A stretch of DNA of 38,422 nt from assembly GCA_018240695.1 (NCBI GenBank), contig JAFEFH010000016.1, positions 1 to 38,422 of the forward strand. Reading direction: 5' to 3'. The notes beneath the pieces are model-generated. The model saw only the letters and a program-made list of their open reading frames with translations, was not told the DNA's origin and did not search any database. Below, piece by piece: positions 19,359 through 37,108 of this stretch (the stretch's first letter is position 1; each line of letters starts with the position of its first letter). The DNA is from Pseudomonadota bacterium (lineage in GTDB: Bacteria > Pseudomonadota > Alphaproteobacteria > Reyranellales > Reyranellaceae). Position numbers and translations under genes: made by a program.

Positions 19359-19455
19359 TCAAACGGCCTTGCTGTGGGACGGCGGCGTGCCTTACGCTTC
19401 CCCCCAACGAATACGGGGCCATCGGCCCACCAACAACCCACCGGGGAAACACAGC

Positions 19456-20340
19456 ATGACGGATGTCCAGTACGTAGCGCCGCGCACGCTCGACGAGGCG
19501 GTCAAAGCCTTCGCCGCGGCGTCGGGCGCGGCGAAGATCCTCGCGGGCGGCACGGACCTGCTCGTCCAGATGCGCGCCGGCATCCTGAAGCCCGGCCTGA
19601 TCGTCGACATCAAGAAGATCGCCGAGATGACGGCGGTCGAGGAGCTGAAGGACGGCGGCTTCCGCATCGGCGCGGCCGTGGCGGGCGCGGTGCTGCGCGA
19701 CCACGCCAGGCTCAAGAAGGCCTGGCCGGGCGTCGTCGAGGCGACCAACCTGATCGGCTCGACGCAGGTCCAGGGCCGCGCGACCGCGGGCGGCAACCTG
19801 TGCAACGGCTCGCCGGCCGGCGACAGCGTGCCGGCCATGGTCGCCGCAGGCGCGATCGTCACCATCCAGGGCCCCAAGGGCCGCCGCGATCTCCCGGTCG
19901 AGAAGGTGCCGGCCGGTCCCGGCCGTCTCAACCTCACGCCGGGCGAGATCGTCGTCTGCTTCACCCTGCCCGCCCGTCCGAAAGGATCGAGCGACGCCTA
20001 TCTGCGCATGATCCCGCGCACCGAGATGGACATCGCCGTCGTCGGCTGCGGCGTCAGCCTGACGATGGACAAGGGCACCGTCACCGCCGCCCGCGTCGGC
20101 CTCGGCGCCGTCGCGCCGACCGTGCTGCTGGTCGAGGAGGCCGGCAAGGCGCTCGTCGGCTCGAAAGTCGGTGCCGGGGGGCTCGACGACGCGGCGCTGG
20201 CCAAGGCCGCCGCCGCGTGCAGCGCCGCCTGCCGTCCGATCGACGACAAGCGCGGCACCATCGCTTACCGCACCAAGGTCGCGGGCGTGCTGCTGAAGCG
20301 CACCGCCGCCATCGCCGCCGAACGCGCCGGAAGGAACTAA
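19456..20340 (+). CDS. Molybdenum hydroxylase FAD-binding subunit (CoxM/CutM-like)
   Basis: A 294-residue FAD subunit of a xanthine dehydrogenase-family enzyme. It has both FAD motifs: AKILAGGTDLLVQMRAG near residues 27-42 and TAGGNLCNGSPAGDS near 115. It passes electrons from the iron-sulphur subunit to an acceptor. The ATG at 19456 is preceded by GGGGAAA. It is the first of three tightly packed genes in the order medium-small-large, the usual order of the CO dehydrogenase-like branch. The large subunit tells against CO as substrate. Confidence 0.9.
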   Translation: MTDVQYVAPRTLDEAVKAFAAASGAAKILAGGTDLLVQMRAGILKPGLIVDIKKIAEMTAVEELKDGGFRIGAAVAGAVLRDHARLKKAWPGVVEATNLIGSTQVQGRATAGGNLCNGSPAGDSVPAMVAAGAIVTIQGPKGRRDLPVEKVPAGPGRLNLTPGEIVVCFTLPARPKGSSDAYLRMIPRTEMDIAVVGCGVSLTMDKGTVTAARVGLGAVAPTVLLVEEAGKALVGSKVGAGGLDDAALAKAAAACSAACRPIDDKRGTIAYRTKVAGVLLKRTAAIAAERAGRN

Positions 20341-20345
20341 GTCAC

Positions 20346-20828
20346 ATGGCCAAGATCCACGTCTCCACCACCGTCAACGGCGAGCCGCAGGAATTCCTCT
20401 GCGACGCCGAACAGAGCATGCTCGACGTGCTGCGCGGGCCGCTCGGCCTGACCGGCAGCAAGGAAGGCTGCGGCTCGGGCGACTGCGGCGCCTGCACCAT
20501 CACGGTGAACGGCCGCATCGTCTGCTCCTGCCTGATGCTCGCGGCCGAGGCCGAGGGCCAGAAGATCGGCACCATCGAGGGCATGGCCGACGGCGAGACG
20601 CTGCACCCGTTGCAGCAGAAGTTCCTCGAGCATGCCGCACTCCAGTGCGGCATCTGCACCCCGGGCGTGCTGATGGCCGCCAAGGCGCTGCTCGAGCGCA
20701 ATCCCGACCCGAGCGAGCACGACGTCCGCTTCTGGCTGGCCGGCAACCTCTGCCGCTGCACCGGCTACGACAAGATCATCCGTGCCGTCATGGAAACCGC
20801 CGCCGACATGAGGGGAGCTGCCCGATGA
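20346..20828 (+). CDS. Molybdenum hydroxylase 2Fe-2S subunit (CoxS-like)
   Basis: A 160-residue subunit with two 2Fe-2S clusters. The plant-ferredoxin-like cluster uses Cys42, Cys47, Cys50 and Cys60 or 62 (GCGSGDCGAC). The second uses Cys101, Cys104, Cys136 and Cys138 (CGICTPG and CRCTG). Cys101 is in the right place to touch the molybdopterin cofactor. All ligands are present. It starts 5 bp after the FAD subunit and its stop overlaps the ATG of the large subunit (ATGA). Confidence 0.92.
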   Translation: MAKIHVSTTVNGEPQEFLCDAEQSMLDVLRGPLGLTGSKEGCGSGDCGACTITVNGRIVCSCLMLAAEAEGQKIGTIEGMADGETLHPLQQKFLEHAALQCGICTPGVLMAAKALLERNPDPSEHDVRFWLAGNLCRCTGYDKIIRAVMETAADMRGAAR

Positions 20829-23110
20829 GCGACAAGACCTCCGCCGCCAATTCCGCCAACGACAACAAGTGGATCGGCCAGCGCACGATCCGTCCCGACG
20901 GCGCCGACAAGGTCACCGGCCGCGCCGCCTATGCCGCCGACACGACCATGCCCGGCATGATCTGGGGCAAGGTGCTGCGCAGCCCGCACCCGCACGCGCG
21001 CATCAAGTCGATCAACACCAAGAAGGCGGAAGCCTATCCCGGCGTGAAGGCGGTCATCACCGCCAAGGACATCGTCGAGTTCCCGCTCGATAAGTCGGTG
21101 ATGCTGGGCATCCAGGACATGCGCTGGATGTGCCGCAACGTGATGGCGCGCGAGAAGGCGCTGTTCGCCGGCCACCCGGTCGCCGCCGTCGCCGCGACCA
21201 GCGAGAAGATCGCGGCCGAGGCCTGCCAGCTGATCGAGGTCGACTACGAGGTCCTGCCCTTCGTGATCGATGTCGAGGAGGCGATGAAGCCCGGCGCGCC
21301 GGTGCTGCACGACTTCATCAAGCACGAGGGCAAGCCGTCCAACATCGCCGGCCGCCTGGAACACAAGCTCGGCGACGTCGACGCGGGCTTCGCCAAGGCC
21401 GACGTGGTGATCGAGCGCACCTTCCGTACCGCGCCGGTGCATCAGGGCTATATCGAGCCGCATGCCTGCCTGGTCAGCGTCTCCGACGGCAAGGCCACGA
21501 TCTGGAGCTCGAGCCAGGGCCAGTTCATGGTCCGCGCGATGTGCGCCTACCTGACGGGCATCCCGCAGAACGACATCCGCGCCATCCCCGCCGAGATCGG
21601 CGGCGGCTTCGGCGGCAAGACCATCATCTATCTCGAGCCGCTGGCGCTCGTGCTGGCCAAGAAGACCGGCCGCCCGGTGAAGATGGTGATGACGCGCACC
21701 GAGGTGTTCCACGCCTCGGGCCCGACCTCGGGCTCGTTCAGCCGCATCAAGATGGGCGCCACGAAGGACGGCAAGCTGGTCGCCGCGAGTGGCACCTTCT
21801 GCCTCCAGGCGGGTGCGCTCCCCGGCTCGCCGATCCGCGGCGCCGCCGGCTGCGCCTTCGCGCCCTACGACATCCCGAACGTCTTCTCCGAAGGCTTCGA
21901 CGTCGTCTCCAACCGCTCGAAGGTCGCGGCCTACCGCGCTCCGGGCGCGCCGATCGGCTGCTACGGCACCGAGTGCGTGATGGACGAGATCGCCGAGGCG
22001 CTGAAGATGGACCCGCTGGAGTTCCGTCTGAAGAACGCCGCCAAGATGGGCATCAAGGCCGCGCACGGCCCGGTCTATCCGCGCATCGGCTTCGTCGAGA
22101 CCATCGAGCAGGCGAAGACCCACGCGCACTACGCCGCCCCGCTGCCCAAGGCCGCCAACGGCAAGCTCTACGGCCGCGGCGTCGCCTCGGGCTTCTGGTT
22201 CAACGCCGGCGGCGAGTCGAGCGCGCAGGTCAACGTCAACGAGGACGGCACGGTGGTGGTGATCACCGGCCATCCCGACATCGGCGGCAGCCGCGCGTCG
22301 ACGGCCAACATTACGGCCGAGGTGCTGGGCATCGATTACCGCAAGGTGTCGGTGCTGATCGGCGACACCAGCACGATCGGCTTCTCGAACCTGACCGGCG
22401 GCAGCCGCGTCACCTACGCCTCGGCGATGGTGGTCACGCAGTCGACCGAGCATGTCATCACGATCCTGCGCGAGCGCGCGGCGAAGATCTGGAAGATCGA
22501 CCCCGACGCGGTGATCTGGGAGAACGGCGAGGCCCGTCCCGCCGGCGACAATGCCGGCAAGTTCGAGCCTCTCAGCCTTGCCCAGATCGCGGCGCAGGCC
22601 AGCGCGACCGGCGGGCCGATCGGCGCGGGCAAGCAGCTCAACACCACGGGCGCCGAGGGCGGCTTCGCCACGCATCTCTGCGACGTCGAGGTCGACCAGG
22701 ATCTCGGCATCGTGCGGGTGCTGCGCTACACGTCGTTCCAGGACGTCGGCCGCGCCATCCATCCGAGCTACGTCGAGGGCCAGATGCAGGGTGGCGCCGC
22801 CCAGGGCATCGGCTGGGCGCTGAGCGAGGAGTACATCTTCAACAAGGACGGCAAGCTCGACAACCCGAGTTTCCTCGACTACCGCATGCCGGTCTGCTCG
22901 GACCTGCCGATGCTCGACTCGGTGATCATCGAGGTGCCGAACCCCAAGCACCCGCAGGGCGTGCGCGGCGTCGGCGAGGTGCCGCTGGTGCCGCCGCTCG
23001 CGGCGGTGTCGAACGCCGTCTACAACGCGCTCGGCCGCCGCTTCTACGCGCTGCCGATGTCGCCGCCGCGCGTGCTGGCCGTGATGGACATGAAGCAGGC
23101 CGCCGAGTAA
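20825..23110 (+). CDS. Molybdenum hydroxylase molybdopterin-binding subunit
   Basis: A 761-residue catalytic subunit. It carries the cofactor motif GGGFGGK (near residues 258-264) and the catalytic glutamate Glu718 in GVRGVGEVP. The active-site loop reads AYRAPG (369-374). True form I CO dehydrogenase has a cysteine in AYxCSFR at this place, so CO oxidation is unlikely; hydroxylation of an aldehyde, aromatic or N-heterocyclic compound fits better. Start and stop overlap the small subunit gene (ATGA). A strong hairpin terminator lies just after the stop. No maturation factors such as CoxD/CoxF or XdhC are in the window. The substrate is not known. Confidence 0.9.
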   Translation: MSDKTSAANSANDNKWIGQRTIRPDGADKVTGRAAYAADTTMPGMIWGKVLRSPHPHARIKSINTKKAEAYPGVKAVITAKDIVEFPLDKSVMLGIQDMRWMCRNVMAREKALFAGHPVAAVAATSEKIAAEACQLIEVDYEVLPFVIDVEEAMKPGAPVLHDFIKHEGKPSNIAGRLEHKLGDVDAGFAKADVVIERTFRTAPVHQGYIEPHACLVSVSDGKATIWSSSQGQFMVRAMCAYLTGIPQNDIRAIPAEIGGGFGGKTIIYLEPLALVLAKKTGRPVKMVMTRTEVFHASGPTSGSFSRIKMGATKDGKLVAASGTFCLQAGALPGSPIRGAAGCAFAPYDIPNVFSEGFDVVSNRSKVAAYRAPGAPIGCYGTECVMDEIAEALKMDPLEFRLKNAAKMGIKAAHGPVYPRIGFVETIEQAKTHAHYAAPLPKAANGKLYGRGVASGFWFNAGGESSAQVNVNEDGTVVVITGHPDIGGSRASTANITAEVLGIDYRKVSVLIGDTSTIGFSNLTGGSRVTYASAMVVTQSTEHVITILRERAAKIWKIDPDAVIWENGEARPAGDNAGKFEPLSLAQIAAQASATGGPIGAGKQLNTTGAEGGFATHLCDVEVDQDLGIVRVLRYTSFQDVGRAIHPSYVEGQMQGGAAQGIGWALSEEYIFNKDGKLDNPSFLDYRMPVCSDLPMLDSVIIEVPNPKHPQGVRGVGEVPLVPPLAAVSNAVYNALGRRFYALPMSPPRVLAVMDMKQAAE

Positions 23111-25822: not shown

Positions 25823-26887
25823 ATGCCCGCGTCCTACGAAACCCACCGCAAGCAGCTCCAGCTGATCCTCGAAGCCTGGGGCATGCCCACGGCGACGGCG
25901 GCCGGCACGGCCGAGATCATGAGCTGGGCCGACCTGCACGGCATCGATACGCACGGCATCTCGATGGTGCCGCCCTATGACGAGCGCCGCCGCACCAACA
26001 AGCTGAACGTGCTGGCCGAGCCCAAGATCGTGAGGGAGACGCCGATCTCCGTGCTGATCGACGGCGGCGGCGGCCTCGGCCATCCCAACGGCCGGCGCGC
26101 CATGGAGATCGCCATCGAGAAGGCGAAGAAGACCGGCATCGGCGTCGCGGCCGTGCGCAACTCCGGCCATTTCGGCGCCTGCGGCTTCTACGTGCTGCAA
26201 GCCGTCGACGCCGGCCTGATCGGCATGGCGACGACCTCGGCCAGCGGCATCCAGGTCGCGCCGACCAACGGCGCGCAGGCCCGTCTCGGCACCGACCCGA
26301 TCGCCTTCGCCGCGCCGGGCAAGCCCGGCGAGCCGTTCCTGCTCGACATGGCGACCACGACCGTCGCCGCCGGCAAGATCCGCAACAAGGCCAACGAGAA
26401 GCTCCAGACACCGCCCGGCTGGCTGGTGACCAAGGACGGCAAGCCCAGCACCGATCCGCACGAGGTGAGCAAGGGCGGCTTCATGACGCCGCTCGGCGGC
26501 ACGCCCGAGGGCAGCAGCCACAAGGGCTACGGTCTCGGCGGCATGGTCAACATCCTGAGCTCGGCTCTGTCGGGCGGCCTGATGGTGACGGAGCCGACGC
26601 GCAACACGCGGCCGGGCGCGATCGACATCGGCCACTTCTTCCTCGCGATGGATCCCGGCATGTTCCGCGACCCCGCCGACTTCCGGGCCGACGTCGCCGC
26701 GTTCTGCGACACGCTGCGCGCCACGCGGCCGACCGATCCCGCGAAGCCGGTGCAGGTCGCGGGCGATCCCGAGCGGCGGACCGCGGCAGCGCGCATGAAG
26801 AGCGGCATCCCGGTCGGTCCCAACCTGCTCGCCAAGGTCAAGGAGATCGCCAAGGCCTCGGGCGCCGACTGGATCATGGAGGGCTGA
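25823..26887 (+). CDS. Malate/L-lactate dehydrogenase (Ldh2) family oxidoreductase
   Basis: A 354-residue NAD(P)-dependent enzyme of the Ldh2/YlbC family, whose members oxidise 2-hydroxy acids such as malate, sulfolactate and ureidoglycolate (AllD). Family marks are ADLHGIDTHGISM (36-48), RNSGHFG with His116 the likely catalytic base, LGTDPIAFAAPG and SSHKGYGLGGMV. AGGAGA stands before the ATG, and the gene is co-transcribed with the SMP-30 lactonase. The substrate cannot be read off. The carbamoyltransferase operon one gene away makes a ureidoglycolate dehydrogenase role possible, but the lactonase neighbour fits sugar acids equally well. Confidence 0.87.
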   Translation: MPASYETHRKQLQLILEAWGMPTATAAGTAEIMSWADLHGIDTHGISMVPPYDERRRTNKLNVLAEPKIVRETPISVLIDGGGGLGHPNGRRAMEIAIEKAKKTGIGVAAVRNSGHFGACGFYVLQAVDAGLIGMATTSASGIQVAPTNGAQARLGTDPIAFAAPGKPGEPFLLDMATTTVAAGKIRNKANEKLQTPPGWLVTKDGKPSTDPHEVSKGGFMTPLGGTPEGSSHKGYGLGGMVNILSSALSGGLMVTEPTRNTRPGAIDIGHFFLAMDPGMFRDPADFRADVAAFCDTLRATRPTDPAKPVQVAGDPERRTAAARMKSGIPVGPNLLAKVKEIAKASGADWIMEG

Positions 26888-27835: not shown

Positions 27836-27847
27836 ATTGTATACAAT
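27836..27847. promoter_or_regulatory. Perfect palindrome ATTGTATACAAT, candidate GntR/FCD operator
   Basis: A 12-bp perfect palindrome in the AT-rich divergent region between the dioxygenase gene and the regulator gene. GntR regulators of the FCD class commonly bind short palindromes with a TGTATACA-like core, and the gene 48 bp to the right encodes such a protein. A TTGTAT hexamer inside it could serve as a -35 element for the rightward operon, with GAGTAT 18 bp on. Binding is inferred from position and form. Confidence 0.6.
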
Positions 27848-27894: not shown

Positions 27895-28623
27895 ATGCCG
27901 TTTGTCGAGGAGGGTGTTGTGGCGCGTAATTCGGCCGTGAAGCAGATCGTTCCGACGCTTCGGCATCGGCTGCTCGATTGGTCCTATCCGCCACGCCATC
28001 AACTGACCGAGGAGAGCCTGTGTGCCGAGTTCGGCGTCAGCCGCTCGCCGATCCGGCAGGCCCTCACCGAACTCGCCGCCGAAGGACTGCTCGAGCGCGA
28101 TCCGCACCAGAGCTACCGGGTGCGCCAGCTGCTGCTGACCGATGTCGAGGATCTCTACGAGTTCCGCTTCGCCATCGAGGTCCAGGCGGTGCGTGGACTC
28201 GCCCGCAACGGATTGCCCAAGGATGTCGAAGCGCGGTTGCGCAGGCAGTGGACGAACCCCGAGCGGCTCGAGAGCCTTTCCCGCCAGGTACTGGCCGGCC
28301 TCGACGAGGCATTCCATGCCGACCTTGTCGCGGCCCACGGCAACCAGCTGATGCTGGACCAGATCCGGCGCATCAACGAGCGCCTCCACGCGTTCCGCGC
28401 GTTCGATTTCTCGCATAGTGCCCGTGCGCAATCGACCGCCGACGAACACACCGTCATCCTCGATCGCATCGCGGCCCGCGATGAGACCGGGGCCGCCGAT
28501 GCGCTACGCCAGAACATCACCAGCGGCCTCGACAACGTCGAGATCACCATCATGCATCTGTTGGCACGGTCTCATTCCTGCGTTGACAACAAGGAGAAAC
28601 GGCATGGACGCCGCAGCCTCTAA
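27895..28623 (+). CDS. GntR-family transcriptional regulator (FCD type)
   Basis: A 242-residue regulator. The N-terminal winged helix-turn-helix is at about 35-78 (LTEESLCAEFGVSRSPIRQALTEL in two parts, then GLLERDP). The C-terminal all-helical FCD effector domain follows (about 85-225), with DLYEFRFAIE, DEAFHADLVAAHGN and EHTVILDRIAARD. It probably binds an acid or ureide intermediate and controls the operon it begins. The ATG at 27895 was used; a GTG at 27919 with GAGGAGG just before it is an equally good start (234 residues). Its end overlaps the permease start by 20 bp, so regulator and pathway genes are coupled, pointing to autoregulation. Confidence 0.9.
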   Translation: MPFVEEGVVARNSAVKQIVPTLRHRLLDWSYPPRHQLTEESLCAEFGVSRSPIRQALTELAAEGLLERDPHQSYRVRQLLLTDVEDLYEFRFAIEVQAVRGLARNGLPKDVEARLRRQWTNPERLESLSRQVLAGLDEAFHADLVAAHGNQLMLDQIRRINERLHAFRAFDFSHSARAQSTADEHTVILDRIAARDETGAADALRQNITSGLDNVEITIMHLLARSHSCVDNKEKRHGRRSL

Positions 28624-30208
28624 AGCACGCCCCAAGCTCTGGACCTCGGGGGACATGAACGCCTTCTTCGGGCTGTTCACCAACGTTCTTCTGAACGTCC
28701 TGGTTCTTTCCTCCCTCTGTCTCGGCGTCGCGAAACTGCCGAACGACATCGTGTTCGGGCGGATCCTGCCCGCCCTCGGCATCGCCTTGCCGATCGGCAA
28801 TCTCTACTACGCCTGGCTCGCCTACCGGCGCGGCATGGCCGACGGCCGCAACGACGTAGCGGCGCTGCCCTATGGGCCGAGCGTGCCGCAGATGTTCATC
28901 GTCACCTTCGTGGTGATGCTGCCGACCTACATCGCCACCAACGACGCCATCCTCGGTTGGAAACTCGGCCTGATCTGGGCGATGATCGTGGGCCTCATCA
29001 CCCTGTGCGGCATCCTGGTCGGCCCGGCGATCCGCAAATACACGCCGCGCGCCGCGATGCTCGGCACGCTGGCGGGCGTCTCCATCGCGTTCATATCGAT
29101 GCGCCCGGCCTTCCTGATCTTCGACACCGCCTGGATCGGGCTGATCTGCTTCATGATCGTGCTGGTCTCGTGGGTAGGACGGGTGCGATTGCCGTTCGGC
29201 CTTCCGGGCGGCCTCGTCATCATCGTCCTGGGCGGCGCGATGGCGTGGACCGGCGTGTTCATGGGCTGGACCGACATCATGAAGCCGGCGCAGGTCAGCG
29301 GATCGCTGAACCTGGTTTCGCTGCATCTGCCGATGTTCTCGTTCGACGTGTTCTCGGTGCCGATGGAAAAGGTCTGGCCGCTGCTGGTCACCGCTATTCC
29401 GCTCGGCATCTACAATTTCACCGAGGCCATGAACAACGTCGAATCCGCCGCTGCCGGCGGCGACGAGTACGACCTGCGCTACGTCCTGTTCGCCGACGGT
29501 CTCGGTGGCGTGGTCGGTGCGTTGCTCGGCTCGCCGTTTCCGCCGGCGGTCTATATCGGTCATCCGGGCTGGAAGGCGATGGGCGGTCGTGTCGGCTACT
29601 CGTTGTTCACCGGCATCTTCGTGTCGATCGTCTGCTTCTTCGGCCTGGCCGCATTCCTGCTGTCGGTCGTGCCGCTGGTCGCCATCCTGCCGATCCTGCT
29701 GTTCATCGGCCTGGTGATCGGGGCGCAGGCGTTCCAGGCCTGTCCACGCCGCCATGCACCGGCCATCGTTCTGGCCCTGGTGCCGAACATCGCCGAGTGG
29801 GCGCGCGGACAGATTTCCGGGACGCTGAGTGCCGCGGGAGTCTCGACGCACCCAATCCCGCCCGACACGATCAAGGCCCTGGCCAACAACGGCGTGGTCT
29901 ACCACGGCATGGAGCTGGCCGGCGGCGGCGCGGTCCTGGCCGGACTGATGCTGGGAGCGATCGCGGTGTTCGTGATCGACCGTCGCTTCAACTGGGCGGC
30001 TGTTTTCGCCCTGTTCGCCGCGGCGCTGTCCTACTTCGGCTTCATCAACGGCTCGCACCTCGCGCTCAATGCGTCGCCTGCCGTGAGTGCGGCCTATTTC
30101 ATGGCCTTCCTGCTGTTCTCGTTCCTGTCCTGGCGTCAGCTGAAGGATGGCGAGGGCATCAGCTGGGCTCCCATCGACAACAACGAAGAAAGTCTCGTGC
30201 ATCAATGA
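28604..30208 (+). CDS. NCS2/AzgA-type permease (xanthine/uracil permease superfamily)
   Basis: A 534-residue inner-membrane protein with about 13-14 hydrophobic segments. It resembles the nucleobase permeases of the COG2252/NCS2 group: an early DMNAFFGLFTNVLLNVLVL helix, GRNDVAALPYGPSVPQ, which corresponds to the conserved loop in AzgA-like proteins, and IPLGIYNFTEAMNNVESAAAGGDEYD, a conserved Asn/Glu-rich stretch near the substrate site. It would import a purine-, pyrimidine- or ureide-like compound with protons. A clear GGAG site precedes the ATG. The start lies inside the regulator gene and the stop overlaps the next ATG (ATGA), tying it tightly to the operon. Substrate unknown. Confidence 0.85.
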   Translation: MDAAASKARPKLWTSGDMNAFFGLFTNVLLNVLVLSSLCLGVAKLPNDIVFGRILPALGIALPIGNLYYAWLAYRRGMADGRNDVAALPYGPSVPQMFIVTFVVMLPTYIATNDAILGWKLGLIWAMIVGLITLCGILVGPAIRKYTPRAAMLGTLAGVSIAFISMRPAFLIFDTAWIGLICFMIVLVSWVGRVRLPFGLPGGLVIIVLGGAMAWTGVFMGWTDIMKPAQVSGSLNLVSLHLPMFSFDVFSVPMEKVWPLLVTAIPLGIYNFTEAMNNVESAAAGGDEYDLRYVLFADGLGGVVGALLGSPFPPAVYIGHPGWKAMGGRVGYSLFTGIFVSIVCFFGLAAFLLSVVPLVAILPILLFIGLVIGAQAFQACPRRHAPAIVLALVPNIAEWARGQISGTLSAAGVSTHPIPPDTIKALANNGVVYHGMELAGGGAVLAGLMLGAIAVFVIDRRFNWAAVFALFAAALSYFGFINGSHLALNASPAVSAAYFMAFLLFSFLSWRQLKDGEGISWAPIDNNEESLVHQ

Positions 30209-30585
30209 GCAAGACACTGTTCGTCAACGGCACCCTGATGAAAGGACTCGCCCTGCACAAGAACCTGGAAGGTGCCGAATTCCTCGGCGCCTTCCGCACC
30301 GCCCCGGTGTACCGCATCTACTCGATCAACGACGTGCATCCGGGCATGCACGAAGTGGCGAGCGGCGGCGTCTCCGTTGCCGGCGAGATGTACAAGATGA
30401 GCGACGAGACCTGGGCCAAGGTCGAGGCCGGCGAACCGCCGCACCTCTACTGCGGACCCGTGAAGCTCGACGACGGCCGTGTCGTCGAGGGCATCCTGTT
30501 TCCCGCGGACAAGATCAAGCCGGAGCACGTCGATATCTCGCGCTTCGGCGACTGGCGCGCCTACATGGCCTCCAAGGGCAAATGA
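30205..30585 (+). CDS. Stand-alone allophanate hydrolase C-terminal-like domain (GGCT fold)
   Basis: A 126-residue protein that matches the C-terminal domain of allophanate hydrolase (AtzF/DUR1,2) and lacks the amidase domain. Visible marks are [16 protein letters not shown] at the start, [18 protein letters not shown] in the middle, and then [12 protein letters not shown] and [16 protein letters not shown], with the gamma-glutamylcyclotransferase-like fold. In a characterised yeast allophanate hydrolase this domain acts on N-carboxycarbamate, releasing CO2. As a separate protein next to a biuret-hydrolase-like enzyme, it may act on an unstable N-carboxy or carbamoyl intermediate. That is inference. 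ATG overlaps the permease stop by 4 bp. Confidence 0.82.
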
Positions 30586-30592
30586 CCGGGCA

Positions 30593-30618
30593 GGCGGAGG
30601 GTATACGCACCCTCCGCC
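30593..30618 (+). repeat. Perfect intercistronic hairpin
   Basis: GGCGGAGGGT (30593-30602) pairs exactly with ACCCTCCGCC (30609-30618) around a 6-nt loop. It lies 7 bp after the stop of the allophanate-domain gene and 40 bp before the cysteine hydrolase start. There is no T tract after it. It may protect the upstream mRNA or reduce transcription into the downstream genes. Confidence 0.7.
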
Positions 30619-30658
30619 CGCGACTTGGCACCGCACGAACCGAACACCAGAGGGCGTC

Positions 30659-31324
30659 ATGACCAGGGTTTTCAAGGCCGAGCCCTATGATCTCGGCTTC
30701 GATCCGGCGAGCACCGCGCTCGTCATCATCGACATGCAGCGCGACTTCCTCGAGCCCGGCGGCTTCGGCTCGATGCTCGGCAACGACGTCTCGCTGTTGC
30801 GCTCGTCGATTGCCCCCTGCAAGGCGGTGCTGGATGCCGCGCGGAAGGCGAAGATGCTCGTCATCCATACCCGCGAAGGCCATGCGCCGGACATGAACGA
30901 CTGCCCCCCTTCGAAGAAGGCGCGCGGCGGCCTGAAGGTCGGCATCGGCGACGCGGGCCCGATGGGCCGGGTGCTGATCCGTGGCGAAAAGGGACATGAC
31001 ATCATCCCCGAGCTCTATCCGGCGCCGAACGAACCGGTGATCGACAAGCCGGGCAAGGGCGCGTTCTTCGCCACCGACCTCGAGTTGATGCTGCGCAACC
31101 GTGGCATCAAGACGTTGATCGTCTGCGGCGTGACCACGGAAGTCTGCGTCAACACCACGGTGCGCGAGGCCAACGATCGCGGCTTCGAATGCCTCGTCGT
31201 GTCGGATGCGGTCGGTTCCTACTTCCCCGAGTTCAACCGCATCGCCCTAGAGATGATCAAGGCGCAGGGCGGCATCTTCGGCTGGGTCGCGCCGTCCGCG
31301 GCCGTGATCGCCGCCGTCGGGTGA
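30659..31324 (+). CDS. Isochorismatase-like cysteine hydrolase, biuret hydrolase/RutB type
   Basis: A 221-residue cytosolic amidohydrolase. The catalytic triad of the family is in place: Asp25 (IIDMQRDF), Lys130 ([11 protein letters not shown]) and Cys163 ([11 protein letters not shown]), with the cis-peptide before it. The central part, [34 protein letters not shown] and [15 protein letters not shown], closely follows what I recall of biuret hydrolase (BiuH), which turns biuret into allophanate and ammonia; RutB, which acts on peroxyureidoacrylate, is related. An AGAGGG site precedes the ATG. Expected reaction: hydrolysis of a terminal amide or carbamoyl group of a ureide. Hydrolysis of oxamate to oxalate and ammonia is an alternative. 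Confidence 0.88.
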
Positions 31325-31334
31325 CGCGCTCGCC

Positions 31335-32174
31335 ATGATCGACGTCCAGGCACAGCAAGTCGGCGCGGATGTCGCGACCTCCTCCTTCGCGGGAGCGGTC
31401 GAGATGGTGTTTGCCCATGCCTGTGCGGTCGCGCTCGACGACGGACGCCGTCTCACCCTGCTCGCCGGACCGGATGAGCAGGGCATGCGCATCATCGCGC
31501 CTTCCGAAGGCGCGTGGCACAGGCTGCATCCGCTCTTGCAGGTCGGCGGGCGTGTTACCGCCAACGATGGCGTCCTGTACGGTGACGGCTTCCGTGTCGG
31601 CTACCGGCGAAACGCCACCCTGTGGCGGTCGCCGGCGTTTCAAGGCCATGTTCCCGCCGACGGCTGGGGACCAAACCTCGTCGAGGCGAAGGCCCACCTC
31701 GACGCCGCGCAGCACGAGTTGCCTCCGGAGATGACGCGGACAGCGGCGTATCGGCGCTTCGCCACTCTCTGTCGCACGCTGCAACGGGAGGAAGCTGCCG
31801 ATGAGGCCGTGCGCGGGCTGATCGGTCTTGGCCCGGGCCTCACGCCGAGCGGCGACGATCTTCTGTGTGGCCTGCTGGGCGGGCTTGCCGCCGCCGGCGA
31901 CACGCGCTTCTCGATCGTGCGTCGGGCGGTGATGCTGCATCTCGACCGCACCACCTCCGCCAGCAAGGACTATCTCAGCCAGGCCTGCACGCCGTGGTGG
32001 ACCGGCCTGCTGCACGGGTTCTTCGCCGCGATCGCCGCGCCGGCCGGCGACATTCCCGGCGCCTTCAGGCGCCTCGCCGCGCGAGGGCACAGTTCCGGCA
32101 TCGATCAGGCCGCGGGCCTGGTGGCGGGGCTCGCCCTCGCCGCCGGTCGGACCGACCTCATTCCAAGCCTCTAG
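31335..32174 (+). CDS. allH: DUF2877 protein, oxamate carbamoyltransferase subunit AllH-like
   Basis: A 279-residue cytosolic protein of the DUF2877/YlbF family. The family signature is GPGLTPSGDDLLCGLLGGL beginning at residue 166; an Arg- and Lys-bearing segment with TTSASKDYL follows near 230. In E. coli, YlbF (AllH) is needed with FdrA (AllF) and YlbE (AllG) for oxamate carbamoyltransferase, which makes carbamoyl phosphate and oxamate from oxalurate. All three are adjacent here, in the order H-F-G rather than F-G-H. It starts 10 bp after the cysteine hydrolase gene. Assignment to the family is secure; activity on oxalurate is inferred. Confidence 0.85.
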   Translation: MIDVQAQQVGADVATSSFAGAVEMVFAHACAVALDDGRRLTLLAGPDEQGMRIIAPSEGAWHRLHPLLQVGGRVTANDGVLYGDGFRVGYRRNATLWRSPAFQGHVPADGWGPNLVEAKAHLDAAQHELPPEMTRTAAYRRFATLCRTLQREEAADEAVRGLIGLGPGLTPSGDDLLCGLLGGLAAAGDTRFSIVRRAVMLHLDRTTSASKDYLSQACTPWWTGLLHGFFAAIAAPAGDIPGAFRRLAARGHSSGIDQAAGLVAGLALAAGRTDLIPSL

Positions 32175-32213
32175 ACGCGGCAGTCCCGCGACGACTGCTT
32201 TCAAGGAGTTTCC

Positions 32214-33773
32214 ATGGCCCTGCTCGTTCACTTTTTCCCGAACATGTACCGGGACTCGGTCGCGCTGATGCAGCTGTCGACCAAGATCGTGCAGTTGCCC
32301 GGGATCGAGGCGGCTTCGGCCCAGATGGCGACCGAAGCGAACATCGACCTGATGGCCCAGGCCGGACTGCTCGAGGAACGGCCCGCCACGCGTCCGAACG
32401 ACATGTTGCTGGTCGTGCGCGGCGAGGAGGCCGGCCTGCAGGCCGCCCGGGACTTTGCCGAGGCGGCCCTTTCCCGGAAGGCCACCGGCGACGACGGCTC
32501 GGTGCAGAAAGTGCAGCCGAGAGCCACCGTCATGGCGCTCGATGGCGACGCCAAGGGGGCCAATCTCGCGCTGATCTCGACTCCCGGCGCGTTCGCTGGC
32601 GCCGAGGCGATGAAGGCGCTGAAGCTCGGTCTCGACGTGATGATCTTCTCCGACAACGTACCGGTCGACGAGGAGATCGCCATCAAGCGCTACGGCCATG
32701 CCCGCGACCTGCTGGTGATGGGCCCCGATTGCGGCACCGCGATCATCAACGGCGTGCCGCTCGCCTTCGCCAACGTGGTGCGCAAGGGCGGGATCGGCGT
32801 GGTCGGCGCTTCCGGAACAGGCCTACAGCAGGTGACCTGCCTGATCCACCAGGCCGGCGCGGGCGTGACCCAGGCGATCGGCACCGGCGGCCACGATCTT
32901 TCGGAAGCCGTCGGCGGCCTGACCATGCTCACCGCCCTCAAGCAACTCGGCGCAGACCCGGACACCAAGGTGATCGTGCTGATCTCCAAGCCGCCGGCCA
33001 AGGCGGTGGCCGACAGGGTGTTGGCCGCGGCCCGCGTCACCGGAAAGCCGGTGGTCGTATGCTTCCTCGGTGCCACGCTCGCCGAAGTCGAATCGCAGGG
33101 CTTCGATTGCGCGCTGACCCTGGAGGAAGCAGCCCTCCGCGCGGTCGAGACGCTGAAGGCCGGCAAGGCCAAGTTCCGCTCCAACCACGGCGCCTCGGCG
33201 GAGCTGCAGGCGCGCGCCAAGCGGCTTGCCGCGTCGGTCGGTTCGGGCCGCAGGTATCTGCGTGGGCTCTATAGCGGCGGCACCTTCTGCTACGAAGCGT
33301 TGCTCCTGCTGCAGGATGTCCTGCCCGGCCTGCAGTCGAACACGCCGACCAAGAAGACGGCGCGCATGGCCGACCTGTGGCGCAGCAGCGGCCACACGAT
33401 CATGGATCTCGGCGACGACGACTTCACGCGCGGACGGGCGCACCCGATGATCGATCCGGCGCTGCGCCTGGAGCGCATCGGCCAGGAAGCGGCGGACGCC
33501 GGCACCGCGATCATTCTCCTCGACGTCGTGCTGGGCTACGGCGCGCATGAGAACCCGGCGGGCGTCCTGGCGCCGGCCATCGAAAAGGCGCGGGCCGCGG
33601 TGGGCGGAAAAGGCGCGCCGGCCTTCGTCGCGCAGATTTGCGGCACCGATGCCGATCCGCAGCACATGGGCCAGCAGGCCGACATCCTGCGCGCTGCCGG
33701 TGTCGATGTTTCCTTCAGCAATGCCGAAGCGGTCGCCCTCGTTCGCGCCGTCTTCGAGAACATCAAAGGGTGA
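32214..33773 (+). CDS. fdrA: FdrA-like protein, oxamate carbamoyltransferase subunit AllF
   Basis: A 519-residue protein resembling the alpha/beta chains of succinyl-CoA synthetase in one polypeptide. The FdrA mark MGPDCGTAIINGVPLAF lies at 169-185, followed by the nucleotide-like loop GASGTG (198-203) and GTGGHDLSEAVGG. The C-terminal half has YSGGTFCYEALLLLQD and ILLDVVLGYGAHENPA. FdrA is the large subunit of the E. coli oxamate carbamoyltransferase; its fold suits handling of acyl phosphate. A strong AAGGAG site is present. It lies between the AllH- and AllG-like genes. Confidence 0.9.
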   Translation: MALLVHFFPNMYRDSVALMQLSTKIVQLPGIEAASAQMATEANIDLMAQAGLLEERPATRPNDMLLVVRGEEAGLQAARDFAEAALSRKATGDDGSVQKVQPRATVMALDGDAKGANLALISTPGAFAGAEAMKALKLGLDVMIFSDNVPVDEEIAIKRYGHARDLLVMGPDCGTAIINGVPLAFANVVRKGGIGVVGASGTGLQQVTCLIHQAGAGVTQAIGTGGHDLSEAVGGLTMLTALKQLGADPDTKVIVLISKPPAKAVADRVLAAARVTGKPVVVCFLGATLAEVESQGFDCALTLEEAALRAVETLKAGKAKFRSNHGASAELQARAKRLAASVGSGRRYLRGLYSGGTFCYEALLLLQDVLPGLQSNTPTKKTARMADLWRSSGHTIMDLGDDDFTRGRAHPMIDPALRLERIGQEAADAGTAIILLDVVLGYGAHENPAGVLAPAIEKARAAVGGKGAPAFVAQICGTDADPQHMGQQADILRAAGVDVSFSNAEAVALVRAVFENIKG

Positions 33774-33778
33774 ACGCC

Positions 33779-35191
33779 ATGGCCGGTCTCATCAGCCAGG
33801 ATCTCAACGTCGTGAACATCGGGCTCGCAAGCTTCGGTGACGTCATTCGCGAAAAGGGCGGAAAAGCCACCGACCTGCAATGGCAGCCGCCGGCGGGAGG
33901 CAATCCGAAGGATGCCTGGAACCTCGCGCTCCTGACCGGCGATCCACGCATCGCCGAGGCCAACAAACTGGCCTATGGCCGCTATCTCGCCGCTCAGCCG
34001 TTTCTGGTCGGCGTCAAGACCGCCCGCGAGGCGCTGCCGGACATGGACGGCAGGATCATCCTTCACTCGGGCCCACCGGTGACGTGGGAGAACATGTGCG
34101 GGCCGCAGCAGGGTGCAGTGCTGGGCGCCGTGCTCTTCGAAGGCTGGGCCGGCGATCTTGACGGGGCGCGCCGCCTGGTCGAAGCCGGCAGCATCCGCCT
34201 CGAGCCGTGCCACCACCATCGCGCCGTCGGGCCGATGGCCGGCATCACCAGCCCGAGCATGCCTGTCTGGATCGTGCGCGACGCCACCTCCGGGAACGAG
34301 GCCTATTCGAACATGAACGAAGGTCTCGGCAAGGTGCTCCGCTTCGGCGCCAACGGACCGGACGTCATCGCCCGCCTGAAGTGGATGGCCGAGACGATGG
34401 GGCCGACGCTGGCGGTGATCGTCGAGGAAATGGGCGGCCTGGACCTCAAGCCGATCATGGCCCAGGCACTGCACATGGGCGACGAGGTGCACAACCGCAA
34501 TGCCGCGGCATCCTCGCTGCTGTTCCGCAAGCTGACGACGACGGCGCTCGCGTCCAAGCGGCTCGATGCCAAGGCAGTGGCGGAAACGCTGACCTTCGTG
34601 GCCGGCAACGACCACTTCTTTCTCAATCTCTCGATGGCTGCGTGCAAGGCCATGCTCGACGCCGCGCACGGCGTGCCGTGCTCGACACTGGTGACGGCCA
34701 TGGCGCGCAACGGCGTCGAGTTCGGCATCAAGATCTCCGGACTCGATCGCTGGTTCACCGCCGAGGCGCCGTTCATCGAAGGCCTGTTCTTTCCGGGCTA
34801 CGGCCAGGCCGATGCCGCGCGCGACCTGGGCGACAGCGCCATCACGGAGACGGCGGGCGTCGGCGGCTTCGCGATGGCGGCGGCGCCGGCCATCGTTCAG
34901 TTCGTCGGCGGCACACCGCGCGACGCGCTCGCCAACACGCTGCGCATGCTGAACATCACGCTGGGCCAGAATCCGGCTTTCACCCTGCCGGCGCTCGATT
35001 TCACCGGATCGCCGGCGGGTATCGATGCCCGCCTCGTCGCCGATACCGGTATCCAGCCCGTCATCAACACCGGCATCGCCCATCGCGAGGCCGGCATCGG
35101 CCAGGTCGGCGCCGGGCTGACCTATGCGCCGCTTGCCTGCTTCAGCCAGGCGGTGTCGGCGCTGGCCGAGACGATGACCTTCGACGCCTGA
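33779..35191 (+). CDS. allG: DUF1116 protein, oxamate carbamoyltransferase subunit AllG-like
   Basis: A 470-residue protein of the DUF1116/YlbE family. Typical stretches are GRIILHSGPPVTWENMCGPQQGAVLGA, CHHHRAVGPMAGITSPSMPVWIV, FGANGPDVIARLKWM and VAGNDHFFLNLSMAACK. E. coli YlbE (AllG) works with FdrA and YlbF in oxamate carbamoyltransferase. The ATG at 33779, 5 bp after the fdrA stop, was chosen with AAAGGG as ribosome binding site; a GTG at 33770 overlapping that stop is possible. Catalytic residues are not established for this family, so none is named. Confidence 0.87.
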   Translation: MAGLISQDLNVVNIGLASFGDVIREKGGKATDLQWQPPAGGNPKDAWNLALLTGDPRIAEANKLAYGRYLAAQPFLVGVKTAREALPDMDGRIILHSGPPVTWENMCGPQQGAVLGAVLFEGWAGDLDGARRLVEAGSIRLEPCHHHRAVGPMAGITSPSMPVWIVRDATSGNEAYSNMNEGLGKVLRFGANGPDVIARLKWMAETMGPTLAVIVEEMGGLDLKPIMAQALHMGDEVHNRNAAASSLLFRKLTTTALASKRLDAKAVAETLTFVAGNDHFFLNLSMAACKAMLDAAHGVPCSTLVTAMARNGVEFGIKISGLDRWFTAEAPFIEGLFFPGYGQADAARDLGDSAITETAGVGGFAMAAAPAIVQFVGGTPRDALANTLRMLNITLGQNPAFTLPALDFTGSPAGIDARLVADTGIQPVINTGIAHREAGIGQVGAGLTYAPLACFSQAVSALAETMTFDA

Positions 35192-35201
35192 GGAGAGTGC
35201 C

Positions 35202-36146
35202 ATGAGCAAAGTCGCAGTGATCGCCGTCGGCGGCAACGCACTGGCCTCCGAAGGAGGTGGCACCTCGATCCCCGATCAGGCGCTGGCCGCCGCCCGTACT
35301 GCCCAGTATGTGGTCGACGTCGCCGCCGCCGGCTGGAACGTGGTGTTGACCCACGGCAACGGCCCGCAGGTCGGCTACATCCTGCGTCGTTCGGAGATCG
35401 CCGCGGCCGAGGTGCCGGTCGTGCCGATGGACTACGCGACCGCCGACACCCAGGGCGCGATCGGCGTCATGTTCCAGCGCGCCTTCATCAACGAGCTGAG
35501 CCGGCGCGGCCTGAAGAAGCCGGTCGCGACGGTCGTCACCCAGGTGCGGGTCGATCCCGCCGACAAGGCGTTCGCCAATCCGACCAAGCCGATCGGCTCG
35601 ATCATGACCAAGGACGTCGCCGATGCGCTGGCCAGGCGCAACGGCTGGTCGCTGATGGAGGAGACGGGACGCGGCTGGCGCCGATGTGTGGCCTCGCCGC
35701 AGCCGCGGGAGGTGATCGAGGTCGAAACCGTTCGCGCCCTGCTCGACAGCGGCCATATCGTCATCGCCTGCGGCGGAGGCGGCATCCCGGTGGTAAGCGA
35801 TGCCGCCGGCACCCTTACGAGCCGCGAAGCGGTGATCGACAAGGATCTGGCGTCGTCCCTGCTCGCCCGCCAGCTCAAAGCCGGAAAGCTCCTGATCGCC
35901 ACGGCGGTGCCCCAGGTCGCGATCAATTTCGGCAAGCCGGACGTCAAATGGCTCTCCCGCCTGCCGCTCGCCGAGGCTGCCCGCTACATGGACGAAGGGC
36001 ACTTCGGGAAAGGGTCGATGGGCCCCAAGGTGGCGGCGGTGATGGAATACGTCACCGCCTGCAATGGCGAAGGTCTCATCACCGACATCGAGAACATGGG
36101 GCGGGCGATCGCCGGCGAGGCCGGCACGCGCATCGTGCGCGGATAG
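35202..36146 (+). CDS. arcC: Carbamate kinase
   Basis: A 314-residue cytosolic kinase that turns carbamoyl phosphate and ADP into carbamate (then ammonia and CO2) and ATP. The amino-acid kinase fold is shown by VAVIAVGGNAL at the start, THGNGPQVG (49-57), PMDYATADTQGAIG, IACGGGGIPV, and the carbamate kinase ending FGKGSMGPKVAAVMEYV. Length is normal. It follows the AllG-like gene by 10 bp with a GAGGAG site. It is the energy-yielding partner of the transcarbamylase; E. coli has a dedicated carbamate kinase for the same purpose in allantoin breakdown. No arginine deiminase genes are near, so an arginine role is unlikely. Confidence 0.93.
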   Translation: MSKVAVIAVGGNALASEGGGTSIPDQALAAARTAQYVVDVAAAGWNVVLTHGNGPQVGYILRRSEIAAAEVPVVPMDYATADTQGAIGVMFQRAFINELSRRGLKKPVATVVTQVRVDPADKAFANPTKPIGSIMTKDVADALARRNGWSLMEETGRGWRRCVASPQPREVIEVETVRALLDSGHIVIACGGGGIPVVSDAAGTLTSREAVIDKDLASSLLARQLKAGKLLIATAVPQVAINFGKPDVKWLSRLPLAEAARYMDEGHFGKGSMGPKVAAVMEYVTACNGEGLITDIENMGRAIAGEAGTRIVRG

Positions 36147-36154
36147 CGGCGGCA

Positions 36155-37108
36155 ATGACTCTCTTCGACACGCTCCAGGCAACGACCGGCTTCTCGACGC
36201 CGATCGTCGATGCCCATCATCATCTCTGGGACCTGAGTGCCGGGCACTACCCGACCAAGCAGGACCAATACGACAACAACTTCTTCCTCGGCGACTACCG
36301 CAAGATCTGCCGCGACTACATGCCGGACGACTATGTCGATGCCCTCAACGGCTACAACGTGATCGGCAGCGTCCACATCCAGGCCGCCCGCGCGATGGAC
36401 GAACAGGTGGCCGAGACGGAATGGCTCGGCACGATGAACCGGCAATTCGGGTTGCCGTCGGTCGTGGTCGGGCATGTCTCCTTCGTCCAGCCCGATTGCG
36501 CGGCCATCCTCGAAGGCCATGCGCGGTCGCCGCTGATGCGGGGCATCCGCTCGCGGCCCACGACCTCGTCCGGTCCGGGCGTCTCGGTCGCGGGCGCGCC
36601 GGGCACCATGCATGACGGCCACTGGCGGCGGAACTTCGCGCTGCTCGAGAAGCACGGCATGTCCTGGGACATGCGCATCCCCTATTGGCGCCTCGAGGAA
36701 GCCGCCGAAGTCGCACGGGCCTTTCCGGGCATTCCCATGGTGGTCAACCACACCGGCCTGCCGCTCGATCGCTCCGAAGAGGGCCTCGCGATCTGGCGCA
36801 AGGGGCTTCACGCGCTCGCCGATTGCCCGAACGTGGTCATCAAGATCTCCGAGCTCGGCCTGCCGCACGGCAAGTGGGACATCCCCAGCAACGTCCGCGT
36901 AGCGCGCGAGGCCGCGACCATCTTCGGGCCGGACCGCATCATCTTCGCCAGCAACCTCCCGGTCGCCAGCCTCAGCACCACGTTCGGCGGGATCGTCGAT
37001 GTGATGCGCGAGGCTCTCGCCGCGGAAACGCCCGAGACGCTGGCCAAGTTCTTCGCGGGCAATGCCATACGATTCTATCGCATCCCGATCGCCGACCGTC
37101 CGCTATAG
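36155..37108 (+). CDS. Amidohydrolase family 2 protein (COG3618-like metal-dependent hydrolase)
   Basis: A 317-residue TIM-barrel enzyme. Metal site signs are VDAHHHLWDL (18-27; His21 and His23 form HxH) and VVNHTGLP. Relatives include 2-pyrone-4,6-dicarboxylate lactonase and sugar lactone hydrolases. Near the end the usual GSDWP stretch reads ASNLPV, with Asn in place of the Asp that metal-dependent relatives use; some groups in the family share this. It starts 8 bp after the carbamate kinase stop, the last gene clearly in the operon. It could open a cyclic imide or lactone of the imported compound. That is inference. Confidence 0.85.
   Translation: MTLFDTLQATTGFSTPIVDAHHHLWDLSAGHYPTKQDQYDNNFFLGDYRKICRDYMPDDYVDALNGYNVIGSVHIQAARAMDEQVAETEWLGTMNRQFGLPSVVVGHVSFVQPDCAAILEGHARSPLMRGIRSRPTTSSGPGVSVAGAPGTMHDGHWRRNFALLEKHGMSWDMRIPYWRLEEAAEVARAFPGIPMVVNHTGLPLDRSEEGLAIWRKGLHALADCPNVVIKISELGLPHGKWDIPSNVRVAREAATIFGPDRIIFASNLPVASLSTTFGGIVDVMREALAAETPETLAKFFAGNAIRFYRIPIADRPL

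Follow-up and report, generated by a model that had tools for sequence, protein, structure and literature searches.

In this work we describe an operon that unites an isochorismatase-like cysteine hydrolase (IHL) of the triuret hydrolase (TrtA) type with homologues of the three subunits of oxamic transcarbamylase (AllF, AllG and AllH) and a carbamate kinase, and we weigh the pathway that it may encode. The operon spans positions 27895-37108 of a 38,422-nt stretch of DNA (contig JAFEFH010000016.1 of assembly GCA_018240695.1, Reyranellaceae), which in its full length we call the window; the host genome comprises 4.7 Mb at a completeness of 93.8%. All nine genes are open frames in the same direction (Table 1), and the joints between them measure, in order, -20, -4, 73, 10, 39, 5, 10 and 8 bp, six of the eight being 10 bp or less and the wider ones lying between AH_C and IHL (73 bp) and between AllH and FdrA (39 bp). 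The row of genes is a real operon, as an initial annotation made from the letters alone had described it, with short gaps or overlaps at most joints. Identical gene order from regulator to carbamate kinase is found at the nearest named AllG match (95%), in a metagenome-assembled genome labelled 'Alphaproteobacteria bacterium 65-37' (L034; L-numbers are our labels for compared loci, G-numbers those for compared genomes). A palindrome upstream of the regulator has a single match in the window at up to one mismatch, against none in 100 shuffles, and is a candidate operator for the GntR/FCD protein.

Table 1. Genes and other features of the operon and its surroundings, in window coordinates.
Feature	Positions	Strand	Basis or remark
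Molybdenum hydroxylase, xanthine dehydrogenase superfamily	19374-23110		Fer2 and MoCoBD subunits
Ldh_2 protein	25823-26887		about 1 kb upstream of the operon
Perfect 12-bp palindrome ATTGTATACAAT	27836-27847	.	ends 47 bp 5' of the regulator start codon
GntR/FCD transcriptional regulator	27895-28623	+	Pfam/NCBIfam GntR and FCD
Permease, UraA/SLC26/SLC23 fold, without Pfam family	28604-30208	+	predicted structure
Free AH_C/AIG2-like domain protein, 126 aa	30205-30585	+	AH_C PF21986; PDB 5c5z, 69.6 bits
TrtA-type isochorismatase-like cysteine hydrolase (IHL)	30659-31324	+	Isochorismatase family, residues, tree
AllH (DUF2877)	31335-32174	+	PF11392
FdrA/AllF	32214-33773	+	CoA_binding and Ligase_CoA; PRK06091, 479.4 bits (cut-off 433)
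AllG (DUF1116)	33779-35191	+	PF06545, 319.5 bits
Carbamate kinase	35202-36146	+	AA_kinase; PRK12352, 367.8 bits (cut-off 266)
Amidohydro_2 protein	36155-37108	+	begins 8 bp past carbamate kinase

Judged by its residues and its place in the family tree, the hydrolase of the operon is of the TrtA type. The name of a biuret-hydrolase-like enzyme that it was first given is ruled out by the BiuH cut-off together with the residues: the protein scores 275.5 bits against the NCBIfam BiuH model (cut-off 370). Against the RutB model it scores 113 bits (cut-off 378). Its best solved relatives are TrtA structures (291 and 287 bits), with a pair of biuret hydrolases behind them at 248 and 232 bits, and it is 61% identical to TrtA and 53% to BiuH. 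At the six positions given in PMC7948467 as separating TrtA from BiuH it carries the TrtA residue throughout (F35, N41, A134, E160, Y187 and I205) and does not match the BiuH consensus (Y, Y, S, D, T and V). Its catalytic triad of D24, K129 and C162 is intact, Q202 is also present, and with seven further catalytic or substrate-contact positions added to the six, agreement with TrtA extends to 13 of 13. The host genome contains one TrtA/BiuH-like IHL at E<=1e-40, with seven of 14 first-look candidates scored.

Defining as T-type those IHLs that have the TrtA residue at five or six of the separating positions, we classed 78 of the 108 sequences from all loci collected as T-type and 26 as B-type, with four unclassed (two reference sequences excluded). 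With the B-types as root of the tree, the T-types form a single clade with support 1.00. Within it, an inner clade (1.00) contains the TrtA whose activity is known; the sequences closest to this inner clade are for the most part IHLs linked to a permease or to AtzE (0.99), and the two groups nest among IHLs linked to AllFGH; the window's IHL lies inside the T-type clade (1.00) and outside the inner TrtA clade (1.00). Residues and tree position thus put the AllFGH-linked IHLs on the TrtA side of the family, and they probably use the same substrate as TrtA. Two genomes of the window's genus that have no AllG (G031 and G393) carry TrtA together with BiuH.

All three transcarbamylase subunits follow in the operon. 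The window's AllG is 49% identical to that of E. coli and, in a tree of 124 sequences, belongs to a clade of 68 (support 0.96) from which E. coli AllG and YahG are excluded. Because of this separate clade the three proteins are to be regarded as homologues of the E. coli oxamate carbamoyltransferase, and not, as the initial annotation had it, as that enzyme itself; they may convert oxalurate or a ureide to carbamoyl phosphate, the formation of which from oxalurate was proven for E. coli AllFGH in 2024 (PMC11326118). The carbamate kinase passes its PRK12352 model and narrowly misses TIGR00746 (347.9 bits, cut-off 358.25). Elsewhere in the AllG tree, YahG joins neither E. coli AllG nor the clade of the window and stands next to loci of Lachnospiraceae and Christensenella; its own locus, yahE-yahJ of E. 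coli K-12 (L156), is a second set of DUF2877, FdrA-like, DUF1116, carbamate-kinase-like and amidohydrolase genes. At L132-L142, L144 and L145, alphaproteobacterial AllG homologues have no adjoining FdrA that was detected with the queries used.

Linkage of the hydrolase to this AllG clade is conserved. The comparison drew on 80 named loci, namely those among 569 confirmed relatives that resemble the window most closely in AllG, and on 40 AllG regions, of which 39 came from a survey of 385 genomes of the class (AllG in 37 genomes, with 49 matches, eight of them outside the regions compared) and one from the same-genus genome G009. Counted at loci with at least 4 kb on both flanks and for neighbours within 10 kb, with the unclassed fragment L078 taken as T-type, a T-type IHL accompanies AllG at 41 of 46 clade loci and at none of 39 other AllG loci; without the flank filter the figures are 46 of 68 and 0 of 56. 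Carbamate kinase is near AllG at 41 of 46 clade loci and at seven of 39 others. The initial annotation had staked its reading on conserved linkage in related genomes, and these counts reveal such linkage strongly. Among the carriers are Proteobacteria, Mycobacterium, Chloroflexi and a record labelled Chryseobacterium. The operon is patchy within the window's genus, given that AllG occurs in only two of 37 genomes and that the second of these, G009, has no IHL on its 7.7-kb contig. A subclade of L042, L046, L047 and L116 combines FdrA, AllG and carbamate kinase with AtzF (in L042 its amidase end only; L046 was not domain-scanned), and no TrtA-type IHL was found at these four loci; L042 has a Xan_ur_permease and L116 a YbbY-like permease. 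They raise the question of whether the same enzyme clade acts there on a different substrate.

The gene between permease and hydrolase had been read as the C-domain of allophanate hydrolase (AtzF) standing free, without the amidase domain. It is indeed a free AH_C domain: no amidase match lies beside it, and it is the sole AH_C match in the host genome, so that no AtzF with the usual domain order came to light there. A detached tail of AtzF is ruled out by its motif, since the free proteins appear from their alignment to be a subfamily with an invariant signature of their own. Across 38 free and 23 AtzF-borne domains (numbered on the window's protein), N8, G9, T10, L11, M12, D43, H45, E77 and P78 are invariant in the free set; position 11 is Leu, within the motif NGTLM, in 38 of 38 free domains as against an invariant His in 23 of 23 from AtzF, and Glu61 is invariant in both. 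Such an altered active site argues for an altered substrate. The AH_C of AtzF decarboxylates N-carboxycarbamate. The nearest solved relative of the free protein, 5c5z, is one that we take to be the uropathogenic E. coli protein c4763, and the CFT073 gene at the corresponding position is annotated 'allophanate hydrolase-related protein'. In a deltaproteobacterial metagenome-assembled genome (L049, 7327-8385) AH_C and IHL share one frame of 353 aa, a fusion that suggests that AH_C may act directly on the product of the IHL.

Around this conserved core, modules are exchanged. Among the 46 clade loci, free AH_C (a frame without an amidase match) is near AllFGH at 30, a complete allophanate hydrolase at eight and neither at eight, and the two never occur together within 10 kb; a Pfam scan of ten AtzF candidates found the amidase domain full or nearly full in eight, partial in one and absent in one. 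The swap takes place between close relatives: the IHL tree (0.90), though not the AllG tree, pairs L119, which has free AH_C, with L120, which has AtzF. Four loci (L050, L087, L118 and L120) have complete AtzF beside IHL and AllFGHK but contain no BiuH, and would need another source of allophanate; the genome of L120 (G138) contains a single IHL match, and that of L118 (G333) has further ones elsewhere.

The partner of the hydrolase varies in turn. A TrtA search of the class had matches in 51 of 385 genomes, and within 10 kb of 39 T-type or unclassed IHLs (the 39 best TrtA matches, E<=1.3e-77) lie AllF/G in five cases, a B-type IHL in 21 and AtzE in seven, one of which also has a B-type. In the full set of 82 T-type or unclassed IHL loci, AllF/G is near 48, AtzE near seven and both near none; a fragment of AtzE truncated at the end of L188 scored under the threshold and was not counted. 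Six AtzEs tested beside T-type IHLs without AllFGH all score above the AtzE-family cut-off, AtzG was confirmed by Pfam in both loci tested (L205 and L208), and the order in L205 is atzF-IHL-atzG-atzE. AtzE acts on 1-carboxybiuret (PMC6219798), which TrtA produces. This pairing of one hydrolase type with varied handlers of the TrtA product is our main argument that AllFGH would act on carboxybiuret or its direct descendants.

Triuret is a product of urate oxidation and a fertiliser product. We lean towards reading the operon as one that degrades a triuret-type linear ureide: the IHL would form 1-carboxybiuret, AllFGH carbamoyl phosphate and carbamate kinase ATP. In the pathway that we infer, the permease would import the ureide; the TrtA-type IHL would remove a terminal amide as NH3, leaving an N-carboxylated ureide, most likely 1-carboxybiuret; and AllF-AllG-AllH with phosphate would split carboxybiuret into carbamoyl phosphate and allophanate or, alternatively, the decarboxylated form, biuret, into carbamoyl phosphate and urea. 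Carbamate kinase would turn carbamoyl phosphate into ATP and carbamate, the latter decaying to NH3 and CO2, and the AH_C protein would handle the N-carboxy intermediate beside the AllFGH step, its place being taken by complete allophanate hydrolase in sister operons. Phosphorolysis would in this way replace an energy-losing hydrolysis by AtzGE, or by BiuH (often with AtzF) beside TrtA proper. The conserved gene set likely keeps the energy of the carbamoyl group by phosphorolysis, as was initially proposed; of the substrates put forward with that proposal, a linear ureide of the biuret/allophanate type is now more probable than a product of allantoin, and an oxalurate-like compound is less favoured. 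We see about even chances for the wider claim that the AllFGH clade is an unrecognised carboxybiuret (or biuret/allophanate) carbamoyltransferase, that triuret is broken down with a gain of ATP, that the operon is widespread and that the free AH_C of the 5c5z type is a new enzyme family.

Several observations weigh against this pathway. The 80 named loci were chosen by their likeness to the window's AllG, and the loci are mutually related, so that Fisher values computed for the linkage overstate their independence; counted over the window and the class-survey and G009 regions only, a T-type IHL is present at five of nine clade loci (0 of 32 others). Five of the 46 clade loci (L036, L042, L064, L066 and L116) have no T-type IHL that was counted, the frame in L036 being present in broken pieces. 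Deep tree nodes are weak, as are several intermediate nodes of the IHL tree (support 0.24-0.93); seven of the 39 class T-type or unclassed IHLs have no AllF/G, AtzE or BiuH within 10 kb; and L058 carries TrtA proper plus a linked IHL, which would be redundant if both cleave triuret. AH_C, present in 43 of 48 genomes searched, is missing in five. The last product is a further difficulty. Among 31 genomes with free AH_C (L038 and L058 were left out, their AH_C frames not being confirmed as whole genes), 24 have no second AH_C and hence no AtzF of the usual architecture, and a full urease match is present in 18 and missing in 13; eleven, including isolates of Serratia, Aeromonas, Dyella and Vibrio, have neither, so that urea or allophanate as last product would be waste. 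A second phosphorolysis, of allophanate, would resolve this problem, if we may speculate.

The exchange of modules would fit oxalurate as well, if oxalurate were what the IHL made. HpxXY, an AtzE-like enzyme of purine pathways, may share oxalurate as a substrate with AllFGH. Identity is only suggestive in telling AtzE from HpxY, the IHL-linked AtzEs being 52-55% identical to AtzE and 44-50% to a ggt-linked Kosakonia homologue, and so only slightly nearer to the former. On this account, which we hold to be unlikely, oxalurate would arise through hydrolysis by the IHL of a precursor, for instance oxaluramide, and would then be converted with phosphate by AllFGH into carbamoyl phosphate and oxamate. 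The only AllFGH with a proven reaction does use oxalurate (PMC11326118), albeit with an AllG of a different clade, and the nitrifier allFGHK is read in this sense in PMC12625717. The Ldh_2 protein upstream of the operon belongs to a family that includes AllD, the oxalurate-forming dehydrogenase, but falls far under both AllD cut-offs (156.5 against 496.2 bits and 173.5 against 356 bits), on which grounds an AllD-type supply of oxalurate from this gene is rejected, and the nearest relative, L034, has no AllD match. An AllD-like gene likewise lies close to the operon of L120. Genes of the allantoin pathway are near-absent from the 68 clade loci, some of them short: at 80 bits or more, AllD-like genes occur in two, AllB-like in one, and AllC, AllE and AllW in none. 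Within the window, the extent of that search, no match of at least 25 bits to the E. coli proteins was found for allantoinase or allantoate amidohydrolase, both of which had been listed as missing. Oxalurate would leave AH_C or AtzF without an evident role; because one or the other travels with the operon, this branch is less favoured, and a triuret-type substrate is favoured over it.

A similarly doubtful version starts from triuret and ends in biuret, made by the IHL together with AH_C as a carboxybiuret decarboxylase, with AllFGH then yielding carbamoyl phosphate and urea. The fusion in L049, which mirrors the amidase-AH_C fusion of AtzF, speaks for it, as does the fact that carboxybiuret, whose half-life is about 20 min, decarboxylates to biuret (PMC7948467), but it leaves unexplained the four loci with complete AtzF and no BiuH, and sits poorly with the 13 free-AH_C genomes that have no full urease match. 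A pyrimidine pathway of the Rut kind, in which the IHL would serve as ureidoacrylate amidohydrolase, for which PMC12928451 offers a comparison in the case of the E. coli copy and for which a cytosine-permease-like gene linked in 16 loci (E. coli CFT073 included) might speak, is highly improbable in the face of the low RutB score, the complete TrtA-type residues and the lack of any other rut gene in the annotated CFT073 stretch (RutA was not searched for in other loci).

The permease has no match to a Pfam family, Xan_ur_permease included, or to a PDB sequence, and NCBIfam, run on one relative of it only, gave no match either. A model built from 22 sequences (predicted local distance difference test 75.3, predicted template modelling (TM) score 0.73) was compared by Foldseek, and the 50 matches listed (E 1.5e-7 to 1.4e-5; TM-score by query 0.40-0.55) include SLC26, SVCT1, UraA and AZG1. 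As far as this model goes, the earlier label 'NCS2-type' is right only as regards the fold superfamily. Related open reading frames number 26 in the loci collected, the window counted. The Amidohydro_2 protein, first taken to be a member of the operon, closely adjoins carbamate kinase, but none of the other collected loci, L034 included, contains a match to it that reaches 40 bits; without a counterpart it is unsupported as a pathway enzyme and is perhaps a recent neighbour. Elsewhere in the window, the large subunit of the molybdenum hydroxylase is under every NCBIfam cut-off shown. For cyanuric acid hydrolase there was no match in the host genome, a result of little weight given that the search controls gave no signal anywhere either.

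Within the CC-licensed literature of PubMed Central we found no paper that joins a TrtA-type IHL, AllFGH and AH_C in one pathway. Of 5426 complete E. coli genomes, 1547 contain a match to the corresponding operon of E. coli CFT073 (7.2 kb; L155:7190-14403), and in 1542 of these the match covers 80% of its length or more. The operon lies on plasmids at 127 of 1616 places in this collection, and the non-pathogenic strain Nissle 1917 is among its carriers. If the triuret pathway is true, it would explain what an operon carried by more than one in four complete E. coli genomes, by nitrifiers and by many other bacteria is for, and the newest transcarbamylase family would gain a second reaction; the breakdown of a nitrogen compound derived from urea fertiliser or urate could yield ATP, and both the oxalurate reading of the nitrifier copy and the Rut-like reading of the E. 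coli copy would need revision.

The operon can be compared with several known systems. With the trtA-(trtB)-biuH-atzF pathway (PMC7948467) it shares identical active-site and diagnostic residues of the IHL and carboxybiuret as the expected product, whereas the host genome has no detected BiuH or AtzF and has AllFGH and carbamate kinase downstream along with free AH_C. E. coli AllFGH with AllK (PMC11326118) likewise presents three homologous subunits and a carbamate kinase in one operon, but the window's AllG is in a separate clade and has a TrtA-type IHL and AH_C alongside instead of allantoin genes. In comammox and archaeal ammonia oxidisers, allFGHK adjoins biuH/trtA (PMC12625717, 2025), a neighbourhood of the same kind, and two Nitrospira loci, L036 and L038, belong to the same AllG clade as the window; the published account is of two pathways, oxalurate beside triuret/biuret degradation, where we propose a single pathway in which free AH_C and AtzF stand in for each other. 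GR29 of E. coli BEN2908, compared with the Rut pathway in PMC12928451 (2026), and C_RS22500-22530 of CFT073 resemble the window in IHL, AllH, FdrA, AllG, carbamate kinase, free AH_C and permease (all in CFT073, most of them named for GR29), and differ in having a cytosine-permease-like protein and a LysR regulator in place of the UraA-fold permease and GntR. The cyanuric acid operon atzDGEHF (PMC6219798), finally, has 1-carboxybiuret as a branch point in common, and AtzGE adjoins IHLs of this type in other genomes; that operon, however, is hydrolytic and starts from a ring opened by AtzD.

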